A stretch of 64,000 nucleotides of DNA, taken from Branchiostoma floridae. Its lineage: Eukaryota; Chordata; Leptocardii; Amphioxiformes; Branchiostomatidae. Positions 30,930 through 56,100 of this stretch are shown in pieces. Position 1 is the first letter of the stretch; each line of letters begins with the position of its first letter. The notes under the pieces were generated by a model. It had not been told where the DNA came from and did no database searches. It worked only from the letters and a program-made list of their open reading frames with translations. The position numbers were made by a program, and so were the translations under genes. The stretch is from the NCBI RefSeq assembly GCF_000003815.2, contig NC_049982.1, positions 673,815-737,814 on the forward strand, written 5' to 3'.

Positions 30930-31197
30930 NNNNNNNNNNNNNNNNNNNNNNNNNNNNNNNNNNNNNNNNNNNNNNNNNNNNNNNNNNNNNNNNNNNNNNN
31001 NNNNNNNNNNNNNNNNNNNNNNNNNNNNNNNNNNNNNNNNNNNNNNNNNNNNNNNNNNNNNNNNNNNNNNNNNNNNNNNNNNNNNNNNNNNNNNNNNNNN
31101 NNNNNNNNNNNNNNNNNNNNNNNNNNNNNNNNNNNNNNNNNNNNNNNNNNNNNNNNNNNNNNNNNNNNNNNNNNNNNNNNNNNNNNNNNNNNNNNNN
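30930..31197. other. Assembly gap (N run)
   Basis: 268 undetermined bases. Open frames crossing it are meaningless. Confidence 0.99.
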
Positions 31198-31299: not shown

Positions 31300-31331
31300 C
31301 AAGGAGGTTAAAAAAAACTTAAACCTCCTTG
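31300..31331. mobile_element. Micro-palindrome with 7-bp direct repeats
   Basis: 32 bp, CAAGGAGGTTAAAAA...TTAAACCTCCTTG, flanked by AAACGAC on both sides, inside the inverted-repeat element at the assembly gap. Confidence 0.75.
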
Positions 31332-32840
31332 AAACGACTAAAAAAAACGTTAAAAAAGCAGCCGGAGCCTAACCTCTGCTTGGAGAGTACACTACATGTG
31401 CATTACAGAGCCATGCTAGTTAAGTTACTTGAACATAACAAATTTTCGTGGATTTTGAAGTGTGGGTTCTTTTATAAACATTTTAATATTGACCTGAAAT
31501 ATGCTTGGCAGCCATAGTAATCCATGGCTCTGGCTTTGTTCCATTAGACCAGAGCCCAACATGTTGCAAATGTACAGAAGCACCAGAAACTGCTCAGAAC
31601 ATATATATGGTAGACATCAGAACAGTTTAATGAGCATTTGTACATATTTTCATAGTTGTTGATAATCCATTGAAATTGAAACATCCACAACACATGCACT
31701 TAACCATTGAAACCAGTAACTAATGCAACAGATATCAAACTACATAGGCAATTGGGATACTATGTAGCTAAGGTACAATGTTGCAGCACTCTAACAACAG
31801 AAGTTGTATTGTCATTCTTATACGAGTAATATGTAAGCCCAATGTGCCAACTTAGAAATTTTGGATGAACTTACATGCAATGTCTTAGTTTGTAGTTAAC
31901 AGCAACAGATTTAACCTTACATTCAATATATATGATAGCTTTGAATTATGTAACGATATATTACTTCATAACACAACAATAGATTGTATGTCACCTTTTC
32001 CTTACATTCAATTGATATGATTAATTTGATTTACGAATTTGAAAATGTATGGTCTGTTACAGAATTTGAATGATATATTACTTCATATCATCACACCATA
32101 CAGCTGTACATAGCATATTAAGATTATAAACGCTTGGAGACTACATATGCTTCTACATTTTAGATCTATAGAACTTAACAAATTGATGATATGGCCTTGG
32201 CTAATGATCATCAATGTACAAGATTTGAAACAATCATTTTTGAAGTACCAAATAAATTATATTTGTTGATACCATATAATACTATATTTTAAACATTGTA
32301 CATTGGTTTGATTCAGTGGCAACACTGTGATATTGAATAAAGTTATTTTGTAACTTATAAATTCAGTATAAGCAATTTCCTAATGCCATATAGGAAACAT
32401 TTAACAATTTCATATGTAAAAGACACACTAAACTGTTGATCCTAAAACTGCCAGTAAGTCCATGTCAATCAACATAATCAAATTTCTATATTAAACATTT
32501 GATCATTTTGAACATGCTTAAACATATATAATCCATAACTAAGTGCATAACAGGATTGGTCTGACATAACTAACATATCAACATTTGTATTATTTTCCCC
32601 AGAGTAGTTTTTTAGGTTGAATTTTGTACATCTTCAATACAATGTATTTGAAGAAAAATGAACTTGCTGAGTCGATCTTGGAACTTTGTAAGATGTGTCT
32701 CAAGTCTGAGTTCTCCCAATCCTTATCATCTAAGGTAAGTAACTGATGGGGTCTAGTCACAAACTTAGGAAAACTTTTTCACATGATGACACCTCAAGAC
32801 CCCAGTCATATGTGGAGACATGAATGTAAGACACTTTCAC

Positions 32841-32846
32841 TTTATT
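32841..32846 (-). promoter_or_regulatory. Candidate polyadenylation signal of PRDM9
   Basis: AATAAA on the minus strand, about 110 bp beyond the PRDM9 stop codon. It is the first canonical hexamer after the stop, but the AT-rich context makes chance likely. Confidence 0.4.
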
Positions 32847-32957
32847 TTTTTCCAGAGCAATACCTTCAGGTGAGTTGACACTAGTTATCAATACTGCCCT
32901 GGTGGTGGCTCATGGACATTAAGGCTTTGGTGTAAATGATTTACACAATATAAAGTA

Positions 32958-33577
32958 TTAGTTTCTGTGTTGGTTTTGCATGTGGGTTCTCATATGACTT
33001 GGTGCCACAAACCCCTTGTTGCACACCTTGCACCTGTGCGGAAACTCTTTAGTGTGGTTTCTGATAACATGTCTCTTCAAATCGCCACTCATAGTAAACC
33101 TCATGTCACAGTGTTGACACTTGTAGGGCTTCTCCCCAGTGTGAATCCTCTTGTGTTTCTGTAGATTACCTGCATGTGTAAACCCCTTCCCACACTCCCC
33201 ACACACACAAGGCTGCACACCAGAATGAGTTAACGTGTGTGTGGTCAGGTTTGACTTTACATTGAACGCCTTCCCACACACTTCACACCTGTAGGGTTTC
33301 TCCCCTGTGTGTATCCGCTGGTGTTTCTTCAGGTCTGCTTTCTGTTTAAAACCCTTCCCACAGGTGTGACACTTGTGTGGTTTCTCTCCTGTGTGGGTCA
33401 GCATGTGACGATTGAGATGATCTATTCTGTCAGTTGAAAAATTGCAGTGTTTGCATCTAAACTTTTTTGACCCTGACCTGTCTGCATGGTGCTTCACATG
33501 TTTGTCCAGGTAGTCTTGAGTGGAGAACAGCTTCTCACACCTGCTGCACCTGTAGCCTGTGACACCTGACTGGACAC
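32958..33577 (-). CDS. PRDM9: PRDM9 terminal exon, seven C2H2 zinc fingers
   Basis: After VQSGVTGY the first finger is CSRCEKLFSTQDYLDKHVKH plus His. Six more follow: CKHC...HMLTH, CHTC...HQRIH, CEVC...HTLTH, CGEC...HKRIH, CQHC...HVIRNH and CKVC...HMQNQH, most joined by TGEKP-type linkers. Fingers 6 and 7 have four-residue His spacing. Contact residues differ from finger to finger and the coding DNA is not an 84-bp minisatellite, unlike mammalian PRDM9 arrays. The stop is TAA at 32,958. The exon start is the origin of the tandem array upstream. Confidence 0.93.
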
Positions 33578-36500
33578 CTGTAGAAAGATAACATTAACAG
33601 TGACAATTTGACATATCAACATGTCTGCATGGGTCTTCACATGTCTGTCCAGGTAGTCCTCAGTGGAGAACAGCTTCTCACACCTGCTGCACCTGTAGCC
33701 TGCAACTGCACCTGTCTGCACACCTGCAAAAAGATAACACTTACAGTGAGCACCTGAGCTATATCTACATGTACCTCCACATGTCTGTCCAGGTAGTCCT
33801 GGGTGGAGAACAGCTTCCCACACCTGCTGCACCTGTAGCCTGCAACTGCACCTGATTGGACACCTGCAGAGATACAACAAGTTACACATTCAGTGTTATC
33901 TCCAAACAATGTATGGACCTGACATGCTTGGATTAGCCTTCACATGTCTGATAGTCCTTGGTAGAGAATTATGAGCCTCCCACACCTGCTGCACCTGTAG
34001 CCTGCAACTGCACCTGTCTGGTAACCTGCAGAGACAGAGTATGTTACACATTTAGTATGTGTATGGATCTGGACTTGGATCAACCCTTACATGTCTGTCC
34101 AGGTTGTCTTTGGTGGAAAACAGCTTCTCACACCTACTGCACCTGTAGCCTGCAACTGCACCTGTGTGGACACCTGATGAGAAATAACAAGTAACATCCT
34201 TTTCTGTCTGATATCTAAACATGGCCTGATATGTCTAGACCGTCTAGACTTAACATGTGTAAATAGTCCCCAAACTTAATAGACTTTAGCCTCCTACACC
34301 TACAACAGTATCTGTCTGGATACCTGAAAAGACATAGTACTAGTAGGTCACATCCCAAGTATGATATCAAAACAAAGTACAGACATGACATGTCTGGATA
34401 ATGCTTTGAATATCTGTCCAGGTAGTCCAAGGAGGAGAATAGATTCCCACACCTGCTGCACTTGTAGCCTGATATTGCACCTGTCTGGACACCTGCATAG
34501 ATAGAATAGTTTATACTTTTAATGTTGTCTTCAAACAATGTATGGACCTGACATGCTTGGATTAGCCCTCACATGTCTGTGCAGGAAGCCAATGGTGGAG
34601 AATAACTTCCTACACCTGCTGCACCTGTAGCCTGCAACTACATCTGTCTGGTAACCTGCAGAGAGAATGTTACACATTTAGTGTTTCCTTCAAACAATGT
34701 ATGGACCTGGACTTGGATTAACCCTTCCATGTCTGTCCAGGTTGTCTTTGGTGGAGAACAGCTTCTCACACCTACTGCACCCGTAGCCTGCAACTGCACC
34801 TGTCTAATTACCTGTTGAGACATGTCGTTCGATAGCATGATTATGGTGAAAAAAGACCTACCACACTAGCTGCGCCTACAAAATTAATGCACCTGTCTGG
34901 ATCGTATACTTGTACAGAGATAACAGGTAGTAGCTTCAGCAGGATATTCAAGCAATTTGTGGACTTGACATTTTTAGCTTAGTCTGTCCAGGTAGTCCTC
35001 GGTGGAAAACAGCTTGCCAGACCTGCTGCACCTGTAGCTTCCAATTGCACCTGTCTGGATATGTGCAGACAGATGTACTTTCAATTATTTAAAGTTGTAC
35101 TGGGTGACTTTTAGAAAAGCTTCCACACATGCAACGGGTATCATTACACCTGTCTAAATCCCTGAAGAGATATAACAGTGGACAGCTTCAGAGTGGAACA
35201 GACATTGTCTCATGTCTTCCAAGTAGTCCTTTCTACAACTTAGCTTCCCACACCTTCTGCAACCTGTAGACCACAATTGCATCTGTATGGATACCTAGAG
35301 AGACATAATAGGTGTCACATCTATTATGGTATCAAAGCACTAAAACTCTGTATCAAGAGATGAAGAAATGTCAGTTCTGTAACAGAAGGCAACACGTTTT
35401 GTAGAGATTCATCTCAATAGATCTACAACAATATACTAATCAAGGCTAAGTTCTTGGGACCGAATTTCCTTCTAAATCTACAATGAGCTACATGTATGCC
35501 TTACGTTGATTTTGCTGCTTGGGCTCCTCTTCTTTTGTCTCTGCTTCTTCAAAGATGCCCAGATCCTTGGCGTACTCATTTCCATACCACACCATCAGCT
35601 CGGTGCCGGGGGGAATAGGCTTGTAGGTGCGGTAGTAGATGTTCCTGTAGTACTGGAAGGCCACCAGGTTCTGCTCCTCCTCATTTCTGGCACAGTTCAC
35701 GTAGCGCATCCAGCTGCTCTTGGTGATGTCAGTGGCATCAATGTAGTACTTCACCTTGTCATTCTTGGAGATCTGCATGAAAATTATTTCGTTTGAATAA
35801 ACCAATGCATCACACTTAAGCAGCATCATGTATTCCTGGGCCATTGTTTAGTTTGTGACACATTAAAGAGAAAACAAGACTAGTGCTACAAAAGACTGTT
35901 GTTTCAAAAGCTTTCTGGTACATGTAGTTTGTGTCAGTCAATCTCCCACAGAAAATGTAAATAAATGGATCCTCAAGATGTAGTATTAACACTAGTGCTG
36001 TTAGTGCTGAGAAAAATATGGCTATAGGCCACTTACTTGCCAAGCATATCCACTTGTCATGCCTATCTCTGGCCCAGTGATTTTCCCATCATATGGCCCA
36101 AACACAAAGTTCTTTGGCATGGCCTTTCCATCCAGCCAGACACCGTCCCCTGCTCCCTTGATCTTGGATGGGCAGACAGACAGGTAGTCAGGTAGTGTGT
36201 GGACCGCTCTGTTTTCTACTCCCTTGGGAACTTCTTTGTCCTTCACCACAATGAGTGGACCATGGACGGGACAGTCTCCCTCATAAAGCTCATTGCAGTC
36301 TTCACAATCTGAAACAAAATAAAGGTATGTTGTTTGTTACAATGATCTAATCGAAGAAAATTGATAAGAATATTGCACCAAAAAAGAAAACACATACACT
36401 ATATAGAAAACACATACACTATATCTTTATGGACTACAAAACAACTTTGCTTCTACTGTAACAGTTATGGATATTCAATAAAGGAAAATAATCCACTGGC

Positions 36501-39500
36501 CTATGTGTTTCTCTTTGTACAACCAAGTAACTACTATTTAAGAATAATTTCAAAGAAATTTCAAACATACACAAGTAGTGGTCATCATCCGGAAGTTCAA
36601 CTTCCTTGTAGTCCTTTCGTGGAATGTTGCGTTGTGGATAGCGACTCTTCCGAGGCTCCTCCGTATCCTCTACTGGCTCCTTTTTTGGTGGTTCCTGCTG
36701 CTTTACTGGTTGGAGTGTTGTGGTCAACAGCTCTGTTTAAAAAAAAAGACATCATGCCCAGCTTAACTCTATTTTAGAAGGGATGTAAAAGAAGGCAATT
36801 CTACACAACATTGCCCCAGTTTTGCTCTCTGTTATGGATAAAAGCCCGTTATGGGTGTAGCAGTATCTGTCAGGAGTTTCAAAATGTAGGAATCTTTAAA
36901 CATGTCTACCTCCACTCTAAAATCTGGCAATGGTTTTGTAGACTTTGGACATGTAGAATTAGCCTAGCCTAGCTGTCCATACTGCAATCATTGAAAAAGT
37001 AGAGTCGGACAAATACAGTACCTTCCTCCAAATCTGTACTGATGTCTGACTCTGACCCCTCCTCCTGCCCATCCTGTGATCCAGCAGCCTCCCATTGCTG
37101 GATCTCTAACTCCAGTTCCTCCATCTTCTTCTCCAGCTCTGCAATGCTGGCTGCTGTGGCTGCCTGCATCTCAGCCACCTCCTCAGGTTGGAATCCCGGG
37201 AACGTTTTGGCATCTTCATCGTCACTCTCCTTTGGAGCTTTGCTCACTGTTGCTTCTGCTTTCTTTTTTGCCTTTAGATAGAGTAAATGATATTTCTACT
37301 ACGGCATATATTTAAGAGATATAAAAAAATGTCAATAAGCCCTCTAAGGTACCCATTAGATCCCATTTTCCTGTGAGTGGACTTTTGCTGTCCTTGGTGC
37401 TGATTGTTGCATTAACAATAAAGGTCACATCCATATTCACTGTTTTACATGAACATTTTGATTGGCAAAGGGTCATTGGTGTTCACCACCAAAAGAGTCA
37501 TTGATGAGTATGCAGAGGTCTATGAGCACACCAACAATAGGCTAGAGCAAGAACTGTGCATCTGAGGATGGCATTTCAGCACCAACCTTATGAATGTACA
37601 AGACCCTCTCCTAATATCGTTTGCTATTACAGTACTATAACATTTGATACAAAAGCGATGTACTGCCACATGTTGAATTATTTGGGCTTTGAATATTGAC
37701 TGTTTCAAGCTTCTGTCTCTTCAGACAATCTATGAATTTACAATAAAAATAATATTGCAAGTCAAATGTTAAAATCATTATATCTTGCCATACCTTTGAT
37801 TTTGGGTGGGAACCAGTAGTCTGGGGCTTAGGTTTTGGCATCCTGGGTTTCTTGGGTGGCAACAGGAACCAAGCTGTGGGTAGATCAAAACAAAAAAGGA
37901 TATCATTTCTATCAGCTAAAAAGACCTGAACAAAACGTTTATGGTACCAGTGAGCAGTCATTAGCAATTGAAATGGATATAGCAGCACAACATGTCTTGG
38001 TCTATCAAGAAGCACTGTGAAAGAACCAAACTTGTGTTCCCCATGAGTAGAAGAAAACTCATGTCCATGAAAACGTTGCCTAAATAGAAGGAGCCCAACA
38101 TATCTGTTGTACTTAATGCAGGGCTCAAAATACTGGGTGCATGTGCACCCAGGTGCACCTAAAATTGGAGCTGTGCACCCAATTATTTTCTGTGGGTGCA
38201 CAGGGTGTGTTATAAGTTTAGAATAGAGTAGGATAGAATGCATGAGAAAAGCAGTTGTAAGGTATCCCCTCCCCGAAAGTTAGAGAACCAGCCCCAGAGA
38301 GACAGGGGTTAAGTCTGGGTGAAACTAGGTCAGCAAGAGAGTCTGGTTGAGGAATCCAGGGAAGGAAGTCTGGACAGGAGGTCCGGGGAAGGAGTCTGGA
38401 TTTGGAAAGATTGTAACATCTTGGACAGAGTGGAATAAACGAGTGTGAACTGCAAGACGTCTCTGTATCTTCAGTCGGAAAAGAACCTGAATCTAACAGG
38501 GTGCACCCAAATATTTTCTTACATTTATGTATGTAAAGATATCAAAGTATACTAGTATACATCATATTCTTGACATGATGAGATCTGAGTGTTAGAAAGA
38601 TAATAAAAATGTCTGTCATGGTACTTGTAAAAGAATTTTTTAGCTGGTAACTACGTTTTATTATTAGGTTACTACTTAACTTTAAGTGGTGCACCCAAAA
38701 AATTTTTGGTGCACCCAATGTTTTAAGCTGGATGCACCAGTGCACCTAATCCCATAAATGAATTTCGAGCCCTGTATTGTAACTTAATATCAGGTTAGCT
38801 TCCCTTTATAAGAATATAGATTCTCTCACGTTTCTTTGGGCGCTGGTTCTTTTTCCTCTCCAGTTCAGGTGTCCATTCCTCATCTTCCTCTGACTCACTG
38901 CTGGTGAGGGGTGGGGTGGGGGGCTCCTTGGGCTGAACCAAGCTGCGCCTGTTCTTTTCCATGAAGTAGGGTTTCTTACCAGGCAGACCTACAAATGCCA
39001 AATTTGATTAATGATAAGTCTTTTTTGGCTGCAAAACTTGATGTTTCCCAAAACTATCACCACTACAGCACTTCATTTGTAATTCATTTTGGGAAAAAGG
39101 TTCACTGTGCACATCACTCTCCTATGCAGAGGGAAGTCGTCTCAAAACTCCTCTTGTGAAAGCAGAGGTAGAACAAGAAGAGTTTTGAGGCTACTTTGGA
39201 CCCCTTTGCGTAGGAGAATGGTACACATTTTACCTCTAAATTTAGGTGCACATATAAGGTTTTCGGGGCACAACTTCAGATCAATGAAGTAGAATGTCAG
39301 CAAAAACTAATTACACACTTTACTGCCTCCCTTAAGAACTTGAACATGAAATTCTACAGCTAATCAAAAATTTCACTTACCATTTTTGAGACGAGAAAAT
39401 GCCAAGATTATACTGTATACTGGTGTACAATAGTATATTCATGTACGTAACACTACACATATATCTAGGTGCACTGATCCACCCACAGTAAAGAAGATGC

Positions 39501-40223
39501 TGCTCAAATTTCGGATGCACAAAAGTGCATAATGTATTTATTTTTATAATTAAGACTACAAAACTTACCAAGCATCCTCATGACGTCATAGTTGCGCTTC
39601 ATGTTCCGATATCGCGTCATCTCGATTTTAGTGAGCTCAGCCAGTTCCTCCTTGCTGAAGTACTGTTCAATGCGGATGTCTTCTGTCTCTGGGACTTTGC
39701 TCATGTCAAAGTCTGTGTCTATCATGTTTGCGAATGGGTTTGAACTGGGAGAGAAAAAATGATACAAAACATGAATAAAACATCATCATCAATGGTTGAT
39801 ATTATAAGTTTAATCACAAGTTAGTAAGACACACTTTAAAGTTTGATACTCCTAAAATCTGATTGCTAAGAATTGGAATGTACAAAATGCAACTGGTTAA
39901 TTTTTTCAAAGTAGCACATAATAGTCTACATCTTGTGCAACATTAAAAAAAAAAAATCCTCATGCCTAAAACTTCAGATATGGCAGATAAGCATACAAAG
40001 GGGGAAGGGGATGAAATCATATGATATTTATCATCTTAGCAATGATATGAGTATGACGTGTACAGTCACGTCATGATTACTATTAGGATTTTGCTCGCAT
40101 TTTCATGAAAAATTGTTTAAATCAACTTATAAGACCAGAATACCTGGCACTGGTGCTGGCTGCTTGCTTGTCGTTGTTCTCGTCGTCTGATCCTGACGAG
40201 CTCGCGCTGCTGACAGACGCCAT
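32958..40223 (-). CDS. PRDM9: PRDM9 (Meisetz) histone H3 methyltransferase, full domain set
   Basis: Family role: binds DNA through C2H2 fingers and trimethylates H3K4/K36 to mark meiotic recombination sites; nuclear. Nine exons: 40223-40144, 39744-39569, 38988-38830, 37873-37794, 37271-37022, 36732-36571, 36308-36037, 35772-35505, 33577-32958. Phases agree and the product is about 688 residues. Order: Ser-rich start, KRAB-like (~44-90), EEWTP motif, SSXRD (~275-302), zinc knuckle (~303-318), PR/SET (~340-470), seven C2H2 fingers (~491-685). The catalytic tyrosines correspond to GYAWQ, NIYYRTY and MVWYGNEY, all present. Human PRDM9 is longer because its finger array is longer. The start ATG opens exon 1 ahead of DNA that contains the shared promoter region. 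Domain order and exon-level similarity make the orthology firm; activity is inference. Confidence 0.94.
33600..35330 (-). repeat. ~13-unit tandem array of the zinc-finger 1 exon junction
   Basis: Units of about 140-165 bp, each with pyrimidine tract, AG and the start of the terminal PRDM9 exon. The finger-1 motif CACCTGCTGCACCTGTAG (plus strand) recurs near 33,540, 33,679, 33,818, 33,978, 34,128, 34,448, 34,610, 34,767 and 35,017. Decayed copies lie near 34,292, 34,870, 35,125 and 35,247. Copies next to the exon encode intact C2H2 modules (HVKTH, HVEVH). Further ones have lost Cys or His (HVRVD, YSKHY, CSRS) and the farthest are barely readable. A GTACAT donor in one copy would cut before the last His, so functional cassette exons are doubtful. 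Confidence 0.85.
35505..36308 (-). CDS. PRDM9: PRDM9 exons 7-8, zinc knuckle and PR/SET domain
   Basis: Exon 36308-36037: zinc knuckle CEDC...CPVH, then VWLDGKAMPKNFVFGPYDG and GYAWQ. Exon 35772-35505: SSWMRYVNCARNEEEQNLVA, FQYYRNIYYRTYKPIPPG and ELMVWYGNEYAKDLGI. The NCAR motif for cofactor binding, the substrate-channel tyrosines and WYG are all intact, so a methyltransferase-competent SET is predicted. The exon junction falls right after GYAWQ. The exon ends in an acidic and Gln-rich tail before the zinc fingers. Confidence 0.95.
36571..36732 (-). CDS. PRDM9: PRDM9 exon 6, SSXRD repression domain
   Basis: Encodes RKSRYPQRNIPRKDYKEVEL followed by PDDDHYL. It corresponds to the SSXRD of PRDM9 and SSX proteins ([23 protein letters not shown] in mammals) and flows across a phase-1 intron into the zinc knuckle. 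Confidence 0.9.
37022..38988 (-). CDS. PRDM9: PRDM9 exons 3-5, linker with coiled coil
   Basis: Exon 38988-38830: GLPGKKPYFMEKNRRS and an acidic SSESEEDEEWTPE, matching DSDEEWTPR of mammals. Exon 37873-37794: PWFLLPPKKPRMPKPKPQ, where PW matches the conserved PPWMAL site. Exon 37271-37022: a heptad-like coiled coil (MQAATAASIAELEKKMEELE) and an acidic tail. A solo LTR nested in a MITE occupies the intron between exons 3 and 4. Confidence 0.85.
38119..38774. mobile_element. CAGGGCTCAAAAT-family MITE split by a solo LTR
   Basis: Starts CAGGGCTCAAAATACTGGG and ends AATTTCGAGCCCTG. Internal GGTGCACCCA repeats lie at both ends. The solo LTR at 38,208-38,498 interrupts it. Flanks carry a similar ACTTAAT motif but no exact target duplication was found. 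Confidence 0.75.
38208..38498. mobile_element. Solo LTR, 291 bp
   Basis: Begins TGTTATAAG and ends CTAACA, giving the TGTTA...TAACA inverted termini of LTRs. It is flanked on both sides by the 5-bp direct repeat GGGTG (38,203-38,207 and 38,499-38,503). AATAAA occurs in the 3' third. No internal region or second LTR is present, so it is the product of LTR-LTR recombination. It lies in the PRDM9 intron between exons 3 and 4. Confidence 0.85.
39569..39744 (-). CDS. PRDM9: PRDM9 exon 2, KRAB-like domain
   Basis: Encodes SSNPFANMIDTDFDMSK, then IEQYFSKEELAELTKIE and MTRYRNMKRNYDVMRML. This aligns with the KRAB/SSX-type box of mammalian PRDM9 (YFTKEEW...WEKTRYRNVKRNYNAL). The first-position Trp of KEEW is Leu. 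The PRDM9/SSX form does not bind TRIM28 strongly in mammals but supports protein contacts during meiosis (family knowledge). Confidence 0.9.
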
Positions 40224-41776
40224 CTTCACACTGTCGTCTGCACTTTGCAAATGGCGGGAAAACTCCTGTCATGACAGAAAAGTAAAGTTGTAGCCTACAG
40301 CACAAATTTAACACATTTCCTACAATTTATTACCTGTCTTGGTGACTTGTAAATACTTAAGGCCAATCTGACAATCGCCGTGCACTTGCAAATATATCTA
40401 CCTGTAACATTACACGACTCGTCTTGGAAAATAAACAAACCTTCAACACTTAGGAATCATTGCCTGTTAAGTTCACAGAACCTACGCTGAGTTTTCCTAA
40501 AAAATGACGACAGCAAAAGGACGTCTTCTTGTTGCAAATAACTAAAAATGACGACGACAACTAACGTTAGAGGTACATCTACAACGTAAACAAAAATTCT
40601 GTCAGAGAACGTCTTGTCACCGAGTTGTCAAAATGTCGTCTGCACAGAGAATGAAACAAAAATTGAAAAGACTGACAGAAAATTGACTTGACATGGCAAA
40701 GACGTGATGGAAAGAGACTCACTGAATGCTCCTACGACCTGTTGAACTCGAATTCCGCTAAATTCCAACTTCTTTGGCAAGAAAATCGCGATTTTGCCTG
40801 TACAAAACTGCAAAACGTCCGTCTTGCAGTGGAACTGGCGGCAAAATGACTTTGGGAACATTCGGAGGTCTTTTTCCCACGATGCACAGCGGTCGTACCT
40901 TTCCGGCGGCTGTTCGGGTATAATCGGGCTTTCTCGGTAACGAAGTATGAACAGACTGTTGATGCAGTAGTAGACAGGCAACTGCTGAACTTTACTAATA
41001 GCCAAGCTCTGAGCGCCGAATTCCTTTGTTAATGAAATGAGATTTTAAGAGACTTTTTTAAAAGTTAATGCTTGATGCAGGGTCTTTTCCTAAGTTCCGC
41101 AACAAAATTAAAACACCTCCATTTTTTTATCTATTCTTATTTTTATATCGATAAATAGCAACGTTTCCTAGATCGTAACAAAGAATCTTAAATCTGAGTA
41201 ACTACAGTTATGGACAGTTAACTTATACCACCAAGGACATATTATTTCCTTGACGTCACACAGACCTTGAGCTAAGATTCACTTCATGTAAAATGATAAT
41301 ACGTGCTCATTAGCTGGAAATAGAGAATGCCAGATACAAAAAAGGCCCATTGACGAAAGAACATTTCAACTTTCAAATAAATGAATACGTTATCTTCAAT
41401 CTACCATATCAGACGTTAAACCGGATAGTGAGTGTGAGTGAGTGGTGTGAGTGAGACATGTAGTAGGAAAACTACTTATTCATTTATTAGGAGAATTAGC
41501 TAAAAGTTATCATGTTCTGTGTACCACTGTTTTACTATGTTTGCCTTCTTGCATAGGCTTCCAATAAAATTATTGTTAACGTTATATTGTTATCCTCATT
41601 TGTGATTAATTGCCCCACCCTTACATCTGCTTGGTTGCGAAACTTTTGTTGATAGCTTGGTCAGGAACCCCCCACGTGTGTAATGGTTAGTCCCGAGTCC
41701 AAGAGACCAAGATGGCCGCTTGAGTCTGGAAATTCCGCCAGTTCTCCCGTTATTGTCTCCAGACCACGCTGTAGCG
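40224..41776. promoter_or_regulatory. Divergent promoter region of PRDM9 and the CCDC82-like gene
   Basis: 1.55 kb between the two start codons, which face away from each other. CpG density rises at 40,500-40,960 and again at 41,650-41,850 (AAGATGGCCGC at 41,709 is a YY1-type motif near the plus-strand start). No exon is supported. A shared bidirectional promoter is inference; the 5' UTRs are not placed. Confidence 0.5.
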
Positions 41777-43124
41777 ATGCCGAAGAAGAGAAAGAGGGCG
41801 GCCGCGGATAGGGGGAAAGAAAAGCCCCAAGAAGAAGCCCAATCAGAAGGGTATGTTTGTATTTTGTCGTCCTTTTCGCACGCAGCTGTATCAAAATCTA
41901 TGCACGCGAATCGCGGCGAATTTTTATATGCGCAGATTTTGACACTGTTCTACCAAGGAGGCCCCTTTTCAACCTCCTTGGTTCTACTCAGTAGCCGCAA
42001 AAGGTAACAGCGTCTTTCTTTAGCCAGACATAGCAGGTTTGCAGATTTTTTTGCTTGCACATTATGTGCCGTTTCATGATTGTATATCAGTTCATCTTAC
42101 ATTCGGTTCCTTGTATTCTGTCATATGTAAATCAGAATGGATGTTCTTTTATGAGAAACGGCCCCGCTTTGTGATCAAAACAACCCTGACTCCCGTATAT
42201 GCCTGCATATGTCAGGTCAGACACTACTGAAATAATAATGCTGCGGCCCCCAACCGGCCTGCTACACTCCTCGCACACAGTCTCACCTAGTATGGTTTGA
42301 TTTGACTTATTTATTCTGCGCATATTAAAATCATATGCACATGTCAATAGATCCTTGTGAATATACAAGAAGAATAAAAGATCATGTGCATGGGAGAATA
42401 TGGAAAGCCACAGTGGCACATCTTCTTTACTTACTTTAGTCTCATACGTCTGGTGTATTATTTGCAGACAACTTATGTACCCAATTACTATAGAGGCTGA
42501 ATTATGTGCTCGGCAGCTCAAAAGCACCTCCTCAAAGTTAATAATAATAATAATAATACATTTGTAATAATAAACATGGAACCCCCATCTTACGTCCCTT
42601 CTGATTGCAAATGACAAGTCACTACAGCATCCAGTCTTCTTTGGTGGTCTCCCATCCAAGTACTGACCAGAATGTCAAAGATCGAGGGATTGGGTGTATC
42701 AACGCGCCACACTGTCGTAGAATGTAGAATGAGATAATCAACAGTTTACACATGGGTCAGTTACAACAAGTGTCCCATACAGTTGAACAAAGGGGAAAAA
42801 ATGCATGGTTCCATGTCGGAAACTCTGACATGACCCTCTCCACTTTCTCTTTTGTAACCACTTGAACTTTTGCCATTCGATGCCATATGTCATGATATGG
42901 CATGACTTTGTCAATATTGACCTTTGTAATATCCCAATGGGCCAGTTCCAAAATGAAGGAGAATGGGTGGTGGAACTGGAAGAGATTTGATTTGACGGGG
43001 TTTTCAAAGAAACCTGGATCGGACAGGGGGTTGTTAGTCTTAAACAAGAAATATGAATGCACAGCCAGTGGCAGAGTTTGTCATACTCATACAAATTTGA
43101 TATGGTCTGTGCAAGGACATTACA

Positions 43125-43159
<35 letters not shown>

Positions 43160-46100
43160 CATACATATACTATAGCGTAACTTCCAGGGCTCCAGAATAA
43201 CTTTTTGACCTAGGAGCACTTTGTCAGGTGCTTCTAGAGAAGTTGCAATGCTACTGTTTGGTTTCCTTTAAATTTAATATTTTTCAGCCAGTCTTCAATA
43301 ACCATATTGTTGTACTTGTACTAGTAGTTGAGTCTTGCCTGTACATGTTTGACTGCCTTGTGTAGCATCTGCTGCATTTGGTGTGATAATTTTCTTGTTA
43401 TTGTCATGATAAATTCCTTGCTATTGTTTAAGTAGAGTAGAGTTCTTCTGATGAAGGTAGGAATGTCTGGTTCTAATTTTGTCAGACGGCTCTTCATTTC
43501 ACATGACACATCATCCCTGGTCACTGTGGGTCATCCAGATCTCTGTATTTGTAATACACAAGTTGTGTTGTCTCATGTGGTTATCCAGGCATGTGGTTTG
43601 CAACAAAAACAACATAACTGTGTGGTGCAACATCTGTTTATAATCATACTTAGTTATACTTATACAAGTATATGATAGATTTATCAGGCCTTTCATCAAG
43701 TAATCATTATCTGCACCTTGGTTATATTTTGTCTGACCCTAACTCTTTCCTCATGATCTCGATGAGACTATTGAGAGTGCTGCCAATTTGAGCTTCTCAT
43801 GAATAAACTAAGATTTGTACAAACTGTTGAAATTTATAATTGTACCCTGTCTACCCCTGTAGTGAGAGTGAGCCGTCCCTACAGGAGGAGATGACAACAG
43901 AGTACCTGTCTATTCTGGAGTCCATGGACAGTACTGGTAACACACAGTCTGGTACAGGTAAGCATTGTTCTAGCTAGGAGTTTATTCGACCGTAAGGCCG
44001 TGGGTAGTGGTGTTTCTGAAATTCAAAAAAAATACATAGACAGGCCCAACAAAAATCTTTGCCATGAAGTGCATGACCACACATATATACTCCAGGAGCA
44101 TGAAAGATCTATGGTGTAGATTTTTAAGTTCTAAAGCTTACTTAGGGGAAGAATTACTGTCAGACAGGTCACAGTTGTAGACTGTGGCCTTATGTGACCT
44201 AACCTGGGATCCAGCCATAATATAGGTCCCTCTGTCCTTTCTTATTTGTTCAAGAGACACAAGAGCCAGATAATTTGATATGGCTGGATACCAGGCCATG
44301 TGACCCAATAGCATTCACCAGGTCAATCAGAATGTTATGCTTGCCAGAGAATCTGCTCCCCAGGGTAAGGGGGCATGGTCAGGGCCTGTGGGGTGCATGG
44401 CCCCTGTAACCCTCTGTAGACAAAGCCCTTCATTATTGTTCATATGCAGAGGGTCATGTTTGCTTATTTATCCTGTTGTAGAAGAGGAGAAAATGGAAGG
44501 AGAAGAAGAGGCTGATTCAGACCAGGATGACAGCAAAGGCAACAGGAAGAAGAAACAAGGGAAAGGTAAGGCCAAGTTCTTAAATGAATAAGAAATTATG
44601 CATGCAAAACGAAATATTGAGAATAAAAGTATACAAAACTTTGTTTCGTAAGTTTTGTATACTTTAACAAAGTTTTCTCAATCACCGAAGAAAAACAGTG
44701 TGGAACGTCTGTTTGGAACATCTGAATAAATTTTATATATATATATATATACACAGAGAGGAGATTTCGAAATTGCGAGGGAAAAGTTGTACAGGCGATT
44801 TGAAGGGTTTTGTTGGTCAGTTTAGAGGATCATACAACCTTTTTTATGCTTGATCAGACATTGTTCTACAAGTAAATACTGCTAGCAAATTACCACTGTG
44901 CTAGATAAGAATTAGTGTAATGGTCCTCGTTTAGTGTAGTGGTTGCAAATGATAGTGTGGTCATAACATGCATTAGGCCTACATGTAGGACTGAAACGGG
45001 AAACACAACATTTTTTCCTAGGCCTTAGCTAGAACCCTGCAGTATTGCAGCCCCGTGTCACTAGTCCAAACTCCCTCAGACACAAAATATGGCGTCATGG
45101 CCCAGTGCACTAAAATACACAATTTAGAATCCTGAATGTTGCATTATTGTAGCCCCTTGTTACAAGTTCAAACTCCCTCTTCCACCCATGTTGCTTCTAG
45201 CTGCAAAGTCATCAGCAGAGCCTCCCAAGAAGAAGTCTCCGTTTGAAAACGCTTTTCTGTCCTTTATCGACGAGAGGGACAAGTCCGCACCAGGCTTTGG
45301 CGAGCCAAACCGACCCCGTCGGGGGCAGAACAGTTCAAAACCGCAAAGCAACAAGGAACATAGCTTGAAAGACATCAGAATACAAAGTGGTGCAAGTGAC
45401 CAGTTAGATATTGAAAAAAGTGACCAATCACACAATGCTGATGTCATCTCTGGCCAATCAGGGGCAAGCACCAGTAAGGACCAATCGAGATCAAGCAATG
45501 GCAGCGGCAAATCAGCAAAGAGCAGCAAAGGTAGCCAACCAGAAGGCAGCAGTGATGAGTCTAGTGATTTGGATGAGAAAGCCGACGGGAAGTCTTTCTT
45601 CGAGTCAGTAGATCTTGAGGAGGAAGAGGACACAATCGACCTCCGTCCAAGAAGAATGTCTTCCAGACAGGTGGGGTTTCTGAATAAAACCACAGAGAAA
45701 GTTAACGTAATGGTCCTCACTTGTTTTCACTGATGTGTCATTTGCCATCTATCACTGCCAATTCCAGGGTTCTAGTCAGGATTTTATTTTAGCATAGTGG
45801 GAATGGCATGGTAGCGAAGCAACCAATCAGGAGATTGGTGTGGAAGGGGGTCATTTTGAAAATGTAGACTTAGTTAAAAGTTGGCACTCTGTTAACATCA
45901 CATGTAATTTGAAGGATTTTGGGGTCAGTTTTGAGTGGCATATCATCATTTTTCATTGTTCAGACATTGATTAGACATTGTTGAACAAGAAAATGATAGC
46001 AAAGCACCACAACACTAGTTAAAAATTAGCGTGGTGGCCATTATTTTAGCGTAGTGGTCAAAAATTTTAGCGTAGTGGCCCACTATATGCTAAAATGCAC

Positions 46101-47173
46101 TAGCTAGAACCCTGAATTCTAACTTATTCATACTCTGCTGCAGCTCTATAGATGTAATGACTTTGCATTTGCTGTATTCCAGGCCGCCCAAAAAGCCCGC
46201 ACCGCTCTGCAGACACACGTCTCGGAAGATTCTGACTCGGATGGAGGAGACCCAATCGAGCGGCAGAAGTCTTCTTCCATCCTCAAGGCATCGGCAGACA
46301 GCACAGGTATAAATCATATCTTGAAATAATTAAACTGTAATATCCATCACAGAAATTGGACTCGCCCAAATTTTTGACTATTAGTTAATAGCACCAGTCT
46401 TTGTCAAGGAATGTGTACAATTCAGTGCTGCCGTGGCGTCAAGAATGACTTCTAGCAACACACATGAACTTTCAACTTAATAAATGATATCTATTTATTA
46501 TATGTTTACTTTAGAAGGAAATTTTTGAAATTCAACCCTCCGAGTCTGAAATGGCATTTTCTGCATTTTTGAGAAGAATTCAATGTACAATATGGAGACT
46601 GTCTGTAGCAATGATTTACTGATCATTATTTTCGGGTACCTCCGAGCGTGTGTGTGTGGGGGGGGAGTCGTCCGATGGGCATGTTTGTGTTGTTTGGATG
46701 TCTAATGTTGTATAGCCAATACCGCAGGCGCTACAGAGGCGAAACTTGAAGGTGCTGGGCTGCCGGGGAGAGGGAGACAGGTCACCAGGAAGAGAAGAGG
46801 TAAACCTCATCTTTTTACAGTGCAAAGTTGTACTCTTTATCCTTTTTGTTATTCATTCATTCAACATTGTTAGAATTACACCCGCGGTACCGAAAATGTT
46901 TGCGGTGGTTTTAAGTTCGCAGTGAAGTGGGCACCGCGAAAACCGTGAACATTAGACTACCGCAAAAATTTCTGCATTTGCAGTAAATGCATCTCTCTTT
47001 GTCTAACAAAGCAGCCACATGTTTCTCTGTCTGTCTGTCTGTCTGTGTAACAAAGCAGTGTCATGTTTCTCTGTCTAGCGAAGCGGCGCCACTCGGAAGT
47101 TGATGAAGATGAAGACGATGACCCAGAGTGGAATCCGACCCAGGAGAAGGCTCCGACCAATCGCCTGGACATG
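41777..47173 (+). CDS. Exons 1-7, acidic/basic disordered N-terminal half
   Basis: Exons 41777-41850 to 47079-47173. MPKKRKR at the start, then SEPSLQEEMTTEYLSILESM, a Lys/Glu-rich exon, and a 470-nt exon with PPKKKSPFENAFLSFIDERD, poly-Ser/Gly and SFFESVDLEEEEDTIDLRP. Later exons contain HVSEDSDSDGGDP, RQVTRKRRG and EDEDDDPEWNPTQ. The pattern suits a chromatin-associated regulator, without a recognised fold. The exon 7 donor is tandemly repeated. Confidence 0.78.
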
Positions 47174-50100
47174 GTGAGTCGCTGACAACAACAAAAAAGT
47201 GCACGTCATTGTAGCAGGCTTGTTTAAATCCATAGATTTAAAATAATCCCAGGCTCCGACCAATCGCCTGGACATGGTGAGTCGCTGACAACAACAAAAG
47301 GTGCAAGTCATTGTAGCAGGCTTGTTTAAATCCATAAATTTAAAAGAATCCCAGGCTCCGACCAATCGCCTGATGTGATGAGTTTATGACAACGGAAAAA
47401 GCGAAAGTCATTGTAGCAGGCTCATTTAACTTTTAAGTCCTTGATGATTGAAAGAATCCTGGAACACGGAACACACCCGGACATACAGTCCCTGGCGGCA
47501 CCTGGGCAATTACTGTCGTATTGAGGTCTCCTGAGTGGCGCCGAATGGCAGCTCGCTCCAGACACTTGCGACAGTTGTATTGAGGTCACCTGAGTGGCGC
47601 CGAATGGCAGCTCGCTCCAGACCCTTGCGATTTAGCCCCACCTATTGTAAGCTCCTTACAATTCAGCCCCTGGCTGCAAAGACAAAGTAGTCGTCTCCCC
47701 CAATAACACTTTGGTACAGTCCACGGTGTTTATTCTTCTCTCTCGGTCTTCAATACAGTCACACATGCAACCTCCTTCTCCCGGGTTGCTTCCAGACCAG
47801 GGTTGTAGCCAGCATCCGTCCTTTTGTCCTTTGACGGAATTTTGCAGCTGGGGACGGAAAAAAATTTTGCCCATTCCGTTCTCTGTGACAGACAAAAATC
47901 AGAATATAAAGATATGAATTAAACCAAGCTGAATCTACCAGGATAATTTGCCCCCTAAAACGAAGTTAATAGCATTTCAGAGGATCTAGATTTCAAAAAT
48001 TACTTGCAGAGCATACCCCCCAGACCCCCCTAGGATCGTCATGCCTTCTACAGGATTTCCATTCAAAATCCAGGGGACGAAAAAAAACTTCAGGCTGGCT
48101 AGATCACTGTTTCAGACAGACTGACCCTGTCCTCAGTCCCCCTCCTCCCCCTCCCCCTGACCTACTTCCTCCTAGCACAAGGGATGATCCATTATACACC
48201 TTGGGGAAGGAAGGACCATGTTGCTGCATTTTTCCATAAACTAACTACTCACTATTCTAAGCTTACAACAGTCATCTTAAACCAGTTTACCTCACCAAGA
48301 GCTGATCTTCCACTGGTCGTGACAAAGAATATACAGTAGAATCCAGTTAATTGCACAACGGTTTAATGCACACTTCTGTTAACTGCACGGAATCCCAAAA
48401 TCCCAAACCGGTGCGGTCCAGATAACTTTGCATTATTGCACCAGCCGGATAATTGCACGATATTCACTGGCAAATAGGCTGTGTAATTAAGCGGCTTCTA
48501 CTGTATATATGTGCAGTGTTTGCTGTTTCATTGTACCGGGGAAATTCCCCTAACTCTTCTCAACTAGCACAATGAATGCTGGACCTTCCTAATGTCCCAT
48601 CCTAAAGACTACAACCCTTTCCAGTAGTGCGCATGTCAGTTGACTGCCAACAGTCGGGATTCAAACTCCCAACCCCATGGCCTTCTCCCAGTACATTGAG
48701 AGTACACACCGTTTCGACGTACTCTCCTAGAAACTCCTCCAGCAACTCTCAAGCACAAGGAACCAAGAGTTAAATACCAAGAGAGACTATTGACTCAAAA
48801 GCGAACCATGTGTTACTCAGCACCAAGAGACCACGTCTAGCGAAATAATAGACGTTAAACGAGGACAACAACAACAACAACAAACCATGGTCCAGAAGGT
48901 GTTAGCCTGGTTACGAAACCCCAGCCCGATCTCAAGTATCTATCGTGCAAGGGTCTGGACGGATGGCATAGGCAGCCTTCTCAATTTTGCCCCTTATAGT
49001 GGGCAAAATTCCCCTCCAATAGAACAGCAGCAGGATCAGCAGGAGGTACTACACCCCTGCCATGATTGGTTAAAGACCCCCAGCTGTATTTTTTGAATCC
49101 ATAACAGTGACCACTAAGTACCTGATTCGCTACTGTTCGCCTGCTGACCAACTGTGGTGTGTTGTAGCTGGCTACCTGTGGTGTGAGTGGTCATTAATCA
49201 TAGGTTCTCCCCCCTCTGATCAATTGCCTTCGAGAACATTTCTACAGCCATCCAGCCAGGCCAGACCCCAACACAAAAGATATTTTTGAGGTTGGGGTAT
49301 GGTATCCAGGCTAAGAAGGTGTAGACTTCACTACATGCACTGGCAAGGCAACAGCATAAGATCACTCGGTGGTTTTAGTCAGTGGTTATTTATTTACTGT
49401 AAATCCTGATTTTTTTCAATGTACTGTTATGTTAACGGTTTTCACGGTGACAACTATAACGTGAACTTATCATTACTGATAACAAATAAATCACAGACTT
49501 TTTTTATGAGCACTTGCCCCAACAGTGAATATTTAGTTCCGAGAACAAATAAAATTTTCTCAGACCGTGAAAGTTTGGTGCCGAGAAGACAAAGTGAATT
49601 ACAGTATTTATTTATAGCAAAGGACCAGGCATTATGACACCTCTGGCGGGTCATTAACCCTTAATTAACAATAATTTCAAACATCTATGTGATTCTTTTA
49701 CTTTCAGATACATTTACAAATATTTGTTTCATTTTGCCAATGATAGAGTTGGGTTATTGCCCCATAAAAGTGGACCCTATTGTCTGCCATGAGCTGTCTG
49801 CCGCTATATTTTCACCTTTGTGCTCGGCCATTGATTAATGACACCCAACCATACTTTGAAAGGATGTGTGAATTGCTTTCTTCCCAGTCCACTGATTCAT
49901 GTACAAAATGTTACAAAAAATGGTAGAAAATGGTCAAATGCAGGTACCATTCGTTAGAAACTATTGAAAATATCTTACTAGTATTTGACATCATGACTAT
50001 TTCTCAAGTTTTCTCAACTGGGGAAATATTTTAGAAAGTCAAAATAACGTTCTAAATCAGGGCTCTAGCCAGCGTCCGTTTTTCCGTCAATTGACGGAAA

Positions 50101-53100
50101 TTTGCTGCGTGTGACGGAAAAAATTTCAAACCAATTCGTCAACCTTGACGGTCAAAAATCCTTGGTGGAAGCTACAGGCGGCTAAATGGGAAAGCCGTCC
50201 GCAGCCGTAAAAGCCACACACTGTTTGTTTTGCTATTGTTATGATTGTTGACTTAGTGTGTCGGTGCCCTTTCGCATACGATAATCTCATTAAAAACCCG
50301 TTTTTCAAGGTCTCAGTTCAGTCTCTCTAAGTCCTGGAATAGTGTTTTCGCGACAATGGGAATTGGCTGACGGAAACAAATTTCGAGCTGGCTCGAGCCC
50401 TTTTCTAAATGTTTCCAAGGTATCAAGTCTTTTAGACATATAGATAAATAATGACAATGACAAACCTTGCAGTGACTCAGAATGGATTCTAGCTTCTAAT
50501 TTAAAAACATTTTTGATGTTGCATTGTTGACTTTCCAGCCAATTTACCTCTAGAGGAATCCACGCATGAACGAATAACAATGAAAGACTGACTGATTAAT
50601 GATTGACTGTGAATCGGCAAGTGAACGGTACTATGTACAAGAACGAATGAATGAGTGTATGAATGAATGTACAACTGAATGAATTTCTCCATAACAATGA
50701 GTGAATGGCAAGGAACAAGTCACAGTGAATGAACAAAGAAACTGATAAAAGTATTTTCTCCCAGCTGCCTATCCTTTTGACAGTACAAGTTTGATGGAAG
50801 GTTAATACATATACATATATCTAATAGTATATAACCTCCTTGATACGGGCCTTTCATTTGACATCATCCCTGCCATATTGGATTACAGTTTACACCTGTA
50901 AAGCACGCAATGGCTTTCAAGGACAATTGCCATCCAAAATGGACCCTTGGGGATTAGAATTATAATTACTATGGTGTCAATAAAAAGCCTGTGTATTTAT
51001 ACTACTAGTAACAGAATAAACAAGGAGGTTATATGGAGGAGGATATAACCCCCTTGGAATAAAGAAAAAGCTTACAAACATATGTTCTCTGTGTCCATAC
51101 ATTTGTTCACTATAGATAGTTATATGCCCTGTCAATAGTCATTTTGGAATACTAGACTAGTTGTATTTTTGGGGGTTATTCATTGCAGAAAAATTTGGAG
51201 ACTCTAAACTGTCAGGAGAGAAAGCAGTTTCTGTTTATGCAAGGATGTTATATTTCTATTACATAACGTCCTTGGTTTTATTCATAAGAAGCTTATACAG
51301 TGTCCTTGGTTTATGCAGGGCTCGAAATACCACCTGCATATGCAGGTTAGTGCAGGTAAAATTGAAGCTGTGCAGGTATTTCTTGGGTCTACCTGCACCT
51401 AACCTGCACTTGTTCATGTATTAGGTTTTATACATGAATGTCATATGATGTAGGTGTATGTGGATTGTTCTTAGCTGCATTGACTGTTAGCACCTATGAA
51501 GTATTAAAGAAAAAAAATAGCAATGGTTCCCGAACAATTTTAGTATTATCCAGACTTTCTAAATTCAGAGTGGTGCAGGTAAAATTTGTCTGGTGCAGAT
51601 AATTTTCAATGTTACCTGCACCAGTGCAGGTATGCAGAAAAAAAGTATTTCAAGCCCTGTTTATGTAACCATCTCAAGCAAGTGATATATTAACCCTCAA
51701 ACCACCGTAGCTTTTTTGTGACGTAGATTACCGTATGGGGTCAAAACTGACCCCAAAACGTTTTGTACAAATACAGTTTTTTGTGTGACTCTTTTTGTGA
51801 TTTGTATATATGTATAGTTTCATTAATCTACGCGGGACAATTTGACATGATTAGGTGAGAATACGTCTACCTTATTATCATAATTTATGCAAAAGATCAT
51901 GAGGACCACATTTTGCAGCAAAGCTATACAGACCGGTAAGGAGGTTTTTGATGCCTGTACCAACTTCAATGCTGTATAGCGCCTGAATGGCTTATACTAG
52001 GGCCACCAAACTTGGTAACTTTTAAGAAAATGTTGACAGCAAACTTTTTCAGTGAACAACGTATGTTCATCATTTTTCATGTTGCCATGGCAACGGAATT
52101 CTGACATACATATTTATTACGAAATTTTCTAATTTTGTATTAAACATTTAAGTTTTAAGGTTTTCTTGGCAAATAACAGTTGTGTATCACATCTTATGAA
52201 ATTCAACGTAAATTTCATGACTCAATATTCATAATTTATGCTTATTTGATGACGTCATTAGTCAAAATCCAAGATGGCGGCCGATATTACCTAGATGACG
52301 TCATAATGTCGTCATATAATATGACAATGGCATAAAAGTTAATATAATAATTTTGGCTTACATGTACATCATTCTCTGAAAATTTGGTGATCCTACCATA
52401 AGTAGTTTAGGTGTGGGTCGCAAAAGTTTGTTTAAAAAAATGCTGGGGTCAGTTTTGACCCCACTGGACCATGCATAAACTTTCTAGGATAACTTAATCA
52501 ACAATAAGCCAATCTCGGTAAAAATTTAAGATAAGTTATAGGACACATATACAAACAAACTCCTGAAAGGAAATTTGTTTTCGACCAGAAATGACATAAT
52601 GGCACACATTGATATACGCCTGGGGTCAGTTTTGACCCCATACGGTGGTTTGAGGGTTAAATGTTGGGTATCAATATACCAAGGAGCTTTAAAGCTCCTT
52701 GAATATGCCATGTACATGTAGCTACAGTTTTCACTTGTAGTAGTACAGCAAGGAGGTTCTTTTATTCAACCTCCTTGAATTTATAGGAAGGCGATATTGA
52801 GCTAGCTTGTTTGTTTGTTCTAGGGTTTCTCTTGTGTTTTGTTTTTCTATTTGTATTAACAACACTCTTCAAACACTGAAACATGATAACGCATGTACTT
52901 GTAATCTATGTTTGACAAAGATAACATGGCACTTACGAATGGCCAACAAGAACTGTGCAAGCATAGTGTACACCAAGGAGGTTATATTCTGAATATAACC
53001 TCCTTGTGTACACAAACTCATGACTTGTACCAGACAGGCATCAAACCTGTGTACAGTAGACAGCCCCCATTCTCTTGCATTATCATATCCAGTGTCCGTA

Positions 53101-56100
53101 TTTAGTCAAGTCCAATATTCCAATTGTTTCAGTGGTATACCGTAAAACTAACATTTTCTATACAGTGGTTTGTTAAATATATGAGTTTTTTGTCTAATTG
53201 AGCCGATTTGGCGTGATTTTTCTGTAGTGTTTTGGATCAGGCACCTCTTAAAATCCGCCGGACGGCCCGAGTTCTCACACCCCATACCATCTGGAAGTTG
53301 TTCCCGTGACGAGAAATTCTCCGCGCTAAAGTATAAAATTTCCTTTTGGCGCGACTTCTATATGTCTGTACCAAGTCTTAGAAGTTGTAGGAGTACATTT
53401 GTGATACGTTGAAGACTACATCGCTATAGAAAACGATCTTGCTGGGCCGATATTTGAGTTACTATACGTGTCAACAAGTGTCAACACAGAAGAACTGGTT
53501 CGGTGAGTTGAGCCGAGGCGAGGGCCTGGTTTTAATTTTCATTCGGATAGCCAAGGAGGTTGAATAAGGTTGAATATATTCCCTTATTAAACCTCCTTGG
53601 GATAGCCAACTAACTTCGTTTTAATCATAGTCAGCTACATTGTATTAAAACCAAGGAGGTTATATAGCCTCCTTGATTTAAACCAACCACTTCTAAAAAA
53701 TGACCTCCTGGCCATTTTGTGATCACTTTTTGATGGTTCTTTTGATTGTAACCTTCTGTGTACATAAATAATTTATCGTTCGTTCCCTTGAGTGGTCTTC
53801 TCACTTCTGCCATTTTTCTGCCAAGGACTTTTACTGTATACTAAACTGTACACAACCGCATATTTATTGTTTTGAAAACGACAGAAGCCTCATTAGTAAC
53901 AGTAGTATTTCTTTTTCCAGATACGTTTGGGGGAGTTTTTTGTTTACATTCATCACTAAACTGAATAGTTTAGGCCATAAAACTGCATGGTTCTGGATGT
54001 CATGCCATGTGTGCTGTTTTCTCAAACCCCTGTGTGTGTATAATTTGTATGTGTCATTTTGGATTTTGTCAAACTTTAGTGCTCTATTTGGTAGTTTTCT
54101 ATTTCTAACGATCATTGAAAAATATGTAGCAAGTGTCAACAAATTTGGAAAAAAAAGATTTTCAAAACAGCCAAATATTTACATTTTTTAATAATTGTAT
54201 ACATGAATTGTATATATGATAGATGATATATTTATACAAGGTTGTTGCCCCTTGTACACTGCATATTAGACCAGTTTGTTGTTGTTTGAGTGATTTTTTT
54301 TGTGGTGTTTACAGTTTTACACCCACTAGGAAAAAAAATGCTTCCCGACTGACCCAAGAAAAAACCACCAACCCTTACCCAAGGAGGTTACCCTAGCCTT
54401 TTTTGGGGTGGGCAGTCATATAGTTTCCAGTTAGAATTTTTATGCAGCCTGCTTCCTATCCAAATTTTAAAAAATGAGAACAATGGAAGATAAATAAATG
54501 TATCCACAAATTTGTAAACATAAGGCACAACATTAAAGTTTGACATTGAAGTGTCCCCATGTACAGTATTTCAGTTTTATCACAACCTGTGGAAGATTAA
54601 CTCCAAATTGGTCAGAGAGGACTCTTCTATTTTTAGCCTGTGCATGTTTCATACCCTCACTCACAACCAGGAATAGAGATGTGTACTATTATACTTATTT
54701 TTAGGTAAAGGTACAAGGTTTAGGTACAAGTCCAGACTTGTCCCTGTGCCTAAACAATTATGGTCAATTATCTGTCAGTAAGGATGTAGTATGCCGCAGT
54801 CTTTTTAAAGCTATACTACGTAATATTTGGACAATAGAAAAAGTAGATTGTCCTGACATTTCTTTACATAGTAAGCTAAATCTACCCTTTAGCATTGAAC
54901 ACCAAGGATCAGTGAGAGAAGTTACAACATCAGTGCATCATACAAACATGTCTACAAACTGTGATCTTCCTACATAGACCTCCATGCTTCCTAGGGATAC
55001 ACGCCCACATCTGGCTTATCACATTCTTGTGTGCTTGACTGCACAGTGGGGTGTCTGATGACAGTTTTACCATAATTTTTGTAAAATGTAATCTTTGCAA
55101 GATTTCTTGCAGTTTTGAAGGGAATATAACCTCAGCTTATTGATACCCTACAAAATAGACTAAGTGCATGATTATATCCTATTCTGAAGTGAAAAAAATT
55201 GAGTGTTTTCAAAGAAGAAGATCTTGATTGTTCTCCCATGAGTCACCCTGGAGTGTGATGAACTCATGACCCTAACCCCTAGGTAAATTGGCCTCTTTGG
55301 ATGAGACTTAAAGCAAATTGTAGTCTCCAAACAAGTTCATTAATTTTTCTATTATTTGTACTTTCCAGTCGGCCAGAAACAGCAGTGGAAACTCTGCGCG
55401 TGCTGTGTCATCTAGCGACGACGAGATATCGGACGACGCTGACATGCGACGCGGCCCAGGCAGACCACCCGCCAATGCAACGGTAAGGAAACTTCGTTTG
55501 TTTGTTTGTTTATTTAGATCTCCATTAGAATGTACAACTGTTTGTAACTTCTATTCTTCCTGGAGTCCTAACAAAATTCAAATACATAACATATTTGTAA
55601 GTGAGAATCAAGTATAACGTAATAAAAACAATAAAGTAAACTGAGGTCTGTGTCAAATGATACTTTATCAAACGTCCATTAGCTAACACACTGTAGAGTG
55701 CTTGAAATACTGTAAATGCAGAAATGTTCGCGGTGGATTAATGTTCGCTGTTTTCGCGGTGACCATTTCACCGCAAACTTAAAACCACCGCGAACATTTT
55801 CTATTATGATATTAGACTGCAGTCTATGGTGTTACCGCAAACTTAAATCCACCGCGAAAATTCGTTTTTCCCGCTACCGCGAAATAAAATCCCTGTGAAC
55901 TTAAATGCATTTACAGTATCCTCTTGTACAGTTGCATATGCAACCACATTTTGCTTGGCACAGCTTTTTTTAAAACCCAGGTAGCGCAGTGTGCATCCTA
56001 AAATTTAACAACTGGAAGGAACACTGCTTTTCTCCCACCTACGTGCACAAGCTTATGTATTTATTCCTTGATAAGATAAAACATATATTATAAGTGGTTG

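Follow-up and report, generated by a model that had tools for sequence, protein, structure and literature searches.

The window, by which we mean the whole 64-kb stretch of DNA analyzed here, contains exons of a PRDM7/9-like gene on the minus strand (32958-35847, with a PR/SET exon at 35488-35847 and a C2H2 zinc-finger exon at 32958-33593) and a 5S rRNA at 15726-15841, which at 52.3 bits was the sole Rfam match at the gathering threshold in the window. The PR/SET exon matched 47 proteins, the first of them at 65% identity over 66% of the query, and those that were named came from fishes, a pika, a dragonfly, and a nematode; together with the zinc-finger exon, it points to animal DNA, and some of the repeats may resemble those of amphioxus. 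Three elements (17987-18326, 50058-50402, and 56896-57258) have CAGGGCTNTAGCCAGC-like ends and exact 8-bp duplications, and we take them to be hAT-like. An element of approximately 963 bp (51694-52656), presumably a non-autonomous element of piggyBac type, has inverted ends that start CCCTCAAACCACCGTA, TTAA on both flanks, and internal GGGGTCA...TGACCCC palindromes. Two others (51316-51659 and 19771-20139) have left ends reading CAGGG(C/T)TCGAAATAC and 6-bp duplications (TTTATG and TTAGAT, respectively). The same window also holds a family of short palindromes with the end motifs CAAGGAGGTT (left) and AACCTCCTTG (right), and its members are given here together with two unpaired ends and one longer element:

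16947-17304, unstranded, 358-bp element of a candidate donor kind, exact 7-bp GTTTTAA flanks
31300-31331, unstranded, 32-bp palindrome, AAACGAC on both flanks
41954-41980, unstranded, 27-bp palindrome, GTTCTAC on both flanks, left arm of only 8 nt
50829-50842, unstranded, unpaired right end ATATAACCTCCTTG, partner sought upstream
51021-51056, unstranded, 36-bp palindrome, GAATAAA flanks, arms of 14 nt (1 mismatch), centre of 8 nt (GGAGGAGG)
51240-51308, unstranded, probable ninth member of 69 bp, exact GTTTATG flanks, mirror arms of only 6 nt
52680-52701, unstranded, 22-bp palindrome, perfect over 11 nt, flanks AATATAC/AATATGC with 1 mismatch
52749-52777, unstranded, 29-bp palindrome, flanking repeat not detected (AGTACAG/AATTTAT)
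52974-53006, unstranded, 33-bp palindrome, TGTACAC flanks, two perfect 16-nt arms and one central base, equal to 17 + 16 nt
53552-53599, unstranded, 48-bp palindrome, GGATAGC flanks, AGGTTGAATA of the left arm recurring in the centre
53652-53675, unstranded, 24-bp palindrome, flanks ATTAAAAC/ATTTAAAC (1 mismatch in 8), arms overlapping at ATAT
54380-54389, unstranded, unpaired left end CAAGGAGGTT, partner sought downstream

A sequence-only reading of this window had reported eight near-perfect palindromes of 22-48 bp. All eight are present where it placed them, and both descriptions hold for these eight, with the palindrome at 41954, given its short left arm, as the weakest. The exact 7-bp direct repeats claimed for five of the eight (31300, 41954, 51021, 52974, and 53552) were confirmed, as were the near-matching flanks claimed for two more, 52680 (1 mismatch in 7) and 53652 (1 mismatch in 8). 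The probable ninth member, 51240-51308, has ends that differ from the consensus by 1 and 3 mismatches in 10. We note that its boundary was picked by its matching repeat, an earlier pairing having given 35 bp without a repeat, so five of eight is the unbiased count of exact repeats and six of nine is not. The right-hand duplication of this ninth palindrome is directly adjoined by the element at 51316-51659.

Matching flanks occurred far more often than chance would predict. Among random position pairs with the same spacings, 936 of 1,990,124 share 7-mers (4.7e-4). When the window was scanned blind to the motif for short palindromes having arms of 10 nt, six matches at a repeat length of 7 were obtained, five of them members of the palindrome family, and the same scan on five first-order Markov sequences gave three such matches altogether. 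The flank-matching control and the motif-blind scan together rule out chance palindromes. The earlier view that the varied flanking duplications mark independent insertions is supported, and the flanking repeats behave as target-site duplications of such insertions. The palindromes are also clustered, with seven of nine lying in 2.63 kb (51021-53652), an arrangement never seen in 200,000 trials of nine random positions, although real insertion is seldom uniform. Upstream of the unpaired right end, no partner with a matching 7 bp was found in the 10.8 kb searched, and the 9.5 kb searched downstream of the unpaired left end held one candidate flank, which was not preceded by a matching end.

Conservation among the palindromes was concentrated at their outer ends. 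When the 18 arms were aligned from the outside in, bases 1-5 were invariant and bases 6-10 were kept in 15 to 17 of 18 arms. Further in, base 13 was A in 16 of 18 and base 14 was T in 13 of 18, and ATAT or GAATAA was found again in several arms, with little common sequence deeper. Since members were collected by their 10-nt ends, the search itself accounts for part of the drop in conservation past nucleotide 10, and small rises (for example, at base 20) occur where short elements read into the opposite arm.

No two of the nine palindromes were alike in length or interior. Their lengths were 22, 24, 27, 29, 32, 33, 36, 48, and 69 bp (median 32), and the interiors between the 10-nt ends ranged from 2 to 49 nt, with no two alike among the nine palindromes of the window; an unpaired centre was absent from 52680 and 53652. 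A shared interior, as expected of MITE copies, was not found among these nine. Because the ends and duplications are preserved, the insertions appear to be little decayed, which suggests that the interiors differed from the start. It is these differing interiors that weigh most heavily against a mobile family of mini-elements and in favour of scars that formed singly.

The window contained one intact element with the palindrome ends and a 7-bp duplication, the 358-bp element at 16947-17304. Its left end matches CAAGGAGGTT with no mismatches in 10, and its right end, which has a terminal TA, differs at 2 positions in 10. In a chance control, one of 4000 random anchors had a partner of such quality within 4 kb. 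The left 14 nt of the palindrome at 31300 are identical to the left end of this element, which is a plausible kind of donor. The sequence-only reading had proposed looking for a longer element with the same termini and a transposase; the 358-bp element, with its exact duplication, answers to the first part of that description, but a transposase was not found. An open frame overlapping the element had no Pfam match, and 27 of the 32 window ORFs of at least 110 aa yielded no transposase above the Pfam cut-off, including no THAP or P-type domain; the five ORFs left out of this search span the assembly gap at 30930-31197.

We interpret the palindromes as footprints left by the excision of non-autonomous DNA transposons that had CAAGGAGGTT ends and were most likely mobilized by a P-superfamily transposase, and we place the probability of this reading at about 0.7. 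Their anatomy consists of a target duplication, at most about 17 nt from one end, an overlap or filler, at most about 17 nt from the other end, and a second target duplication. In the eight palindromes first reported, the directly flanking duplications by which a footprint is recognized were exact in five, differed by one mismatch in two, and were absent in one. From this anatomy we infer excision and repair. An element would insert and duplicate 7 bp of target, a step to which the matching flanks and the 358-bp element attest. By analogy with P, a transposase would then release the element by widely staggered cuts, so that each side of the break kept a tail of no more than about 17 nt of element end, and these tails would be joined through short overlaps or small insertions, to give a palindrome between the old duplications. 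The resulting scars would be inert and would not themselves be transposed. Points against footprints include the high ratio of scars to intact elements (nine to one over 64 kb), the lack of a duplication at 52749, and the differences among arms past nucleotide 10, for which several donor families are needed. Such a ratio might be expected where elements leave quickly relative to the time that an insertion needs to become fixed.

Junctions left by the Drosophila P element provide the comparison for the proposed footprints. P transposase makes its 5'-strand cut 17 bp into each end (PMC7776569, in excerpt), so that non-complementary 3' tails of 17 nt stay on the donor break (PMC2895639, in excerpt). 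Table 1 of the latter source, as excerpted, gives repair junctions from Rad51-lacking male flies, and by our own count both of the 8-bp duplications are retained, along with mirror-image ends, in 37 of its 66 isolates (mirror ends of at least 8 nt, total of at least 20 bp), with lengths of 25-44 bp and a median of 32 bp, the length computation having taken 65 rows with one left out. The other 29 of 66 lack this anatomy, and 18 of these 29 were joined at a long overlap that removed most of the ends. In wild-type flies, the same excerpt attributes most recovered products to interrupted gap repair followed by end joining.

The palindromes resemble these fly junctions (PMC2895639, in excerpt) in their two intact duplications and similar lengths, and they may also share residual ends of up to 17 nt and joins at short overlaps or with small, sometimes templated, insertions. 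The median of 32 bp is common to both sets, whereas the window set spans 22-69 bp. The commonest of the 37 fly junctions is a 30-bp AT-overlap product (14 isolates), which the palindrome at 53652, with its ATAT join, resembles, and 52974 can be read as a 17-nt tail joined to one of 16 nt. Mirror arms extend over 6-18 nt at no more than one mismatch, and each junction is unique; this set, collected by 10-nt ends, shows no sharp limit at 17 nt, and the arms at 53552 match over 18 nt (1 mismatch), one nucleotide past it. Unlike the fly junctions, the palindromes have 7-bp rather than 8-bp duplications and CAAGGAGGTT rather than CATGATG ends, and they are read in genome sequence, with several end variants, whereas the fly set comes from Rad51-lacking males.

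Significant evidence for templated filler came from one junction. In the centre of 53552, 10 nt of its arm recur (shuffle P = 0.001), and in the centre of 51240 the right end and its adjoining flank recur imperfectly, which is not significant (shuffle P = 0.19). Repetition of an arm in the centre was significant in one of seven testable palindromes, with shuffle P values of 0.17-0.37 for the other six. Since six of the seven testable interiors are without significant copying, the evidence for filler is thin.

A P-type transposon is the likely source of the repeats, and the suggestion of P already made for the 7-bp duplication is supported. Galileo, a member of the P superfamily in Drosophila, makes 7-bp duplications with the target consensus GTANTAC (PMC4168063 and PMC2775673, in excerpt). 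The seven exact duplications, from six palindromes and the 358-bp element, match this consensus at 22 of 42 positions (11.1 at random; p = 0.00014 against window 7-mers, p = 0.00033 against within-site shuffles, and p = 0.0012 for the six palindrome sites alone), a comparison made post hoc, with the duplications already seen, in which three of 180 permuted consensuses (GTANTAC itself included) were as good, one of them better. The wider P/1360 target motif gave p = 0.027 for the six sites. Galileo is thus similar to the proposed source in duplication length and target site, but the excerpts describe long inverted repeats for it. The CA...TG ends of the palindromes are shared with P (CATGATG; PMC2895639, in excerpt) and zebrafish Pdre2 (CATACC). 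The excerpted account of Pdre2/THAP9 (PMC10983969) adds short inverted repeats (13 bp) and internally deleted copies as further likenesses, and an 8-bp duplication and a different end sequence as differences. Since a transposase was not found in the 27 of 32 ORFs searched, we regard membership of the P superfamily, as read from sequence, as likely only.

The footprints could instead stem from another superfamily that duplicates 7 bp and whose transposase also cuts inside its ends, such as Dada, which makes duplications of 6-7 bp, but we consider this unlikely. Such a source would leave the same anatomy, and our choice of superfamily is based solely on the length of the duplication, the preferred target, and the CA...TG ends; the duplicated sites, on the other hand, resemble the Galileo target. 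Multicopy small RNA genes are the described targets of Dada (PMC3706591, in excerpt), and the only such genes found in the window, the 5S rRNA and a tRNA (63463-63536), do not lie at palindrome sites.

The interpretation first offered for the palindromes, as ultra-short transposons that are themselves mobile, is not supported, although the observation behind it is confirmed and extended here. Under this interpretation, a transposase needing only 10-17 bp of end would move them in trans, which would fit the strongly conserved ends and the exact but varied 7-bp duplications (five of eight, or six of nine with the ninth member). We judge it quite unlikely, given nine palindromes that differ in length and interior with ends and duplications mostly kept, a state of the ends that argues against simple decay. 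In addition, P-type ends need internal binding sites that extend past the length of these palindrome ends. A variant in which 10-bp ends alone suffice in trans and repair rewrites the interior at each jump is very unlikely; if true, the palindromes would be a mobile class about as small as eukaryotic DNA transposons can be imagined to be. An origin as extreme internal-deletion derivatives, produced when gap repair following excision was interrupted and in some cases perhaps mobile to this day, is highly improbable, for although interrupted copying could give the internal imperfect right end and flank in 51240 (P = 0.19), longer ends would often be expected and mirror arms never extend past 18 nt.

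Resemblances outside eukaryotic transposons were also considered. An exact scan of viral contigs for the palindrome gave three stretches, of which two were the same across the portion displayed, without 7-bp flanking repeats, and we took these to be unrelated and terminator-like. Bacterial REP palindromes are likewise short and dispersed, but they are bacterial and we know of no 7-bp target duplications in them.

A literature search with the end sequence gave no work related by title among the matches listed, and the listings from our searches on natural footprint collections and very short MITEs did not describe this pattern. If the reading of the palindromes as excision footprints holds genome-wide, they would amount to a natural archive of germline transposon excisions, densely kept in an animal genome, in which each scar would be a repair junction of a double-strand break, already sequenced and with its ends known. 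The signature of P-type cutting with a 17-nt stagger and of germline end joining could then be read outside Drosophila without experiment. The same reading would serve as a warning that short palindromes with target duplications are not to be counted as transposons. Elsewhere in the window, a 27-bp imperfect palindrome of unrelated sequence (26524-26550) lies between exact 9-bp repeats (CACTCAGTG) and is perhaps the scar of another transposon.
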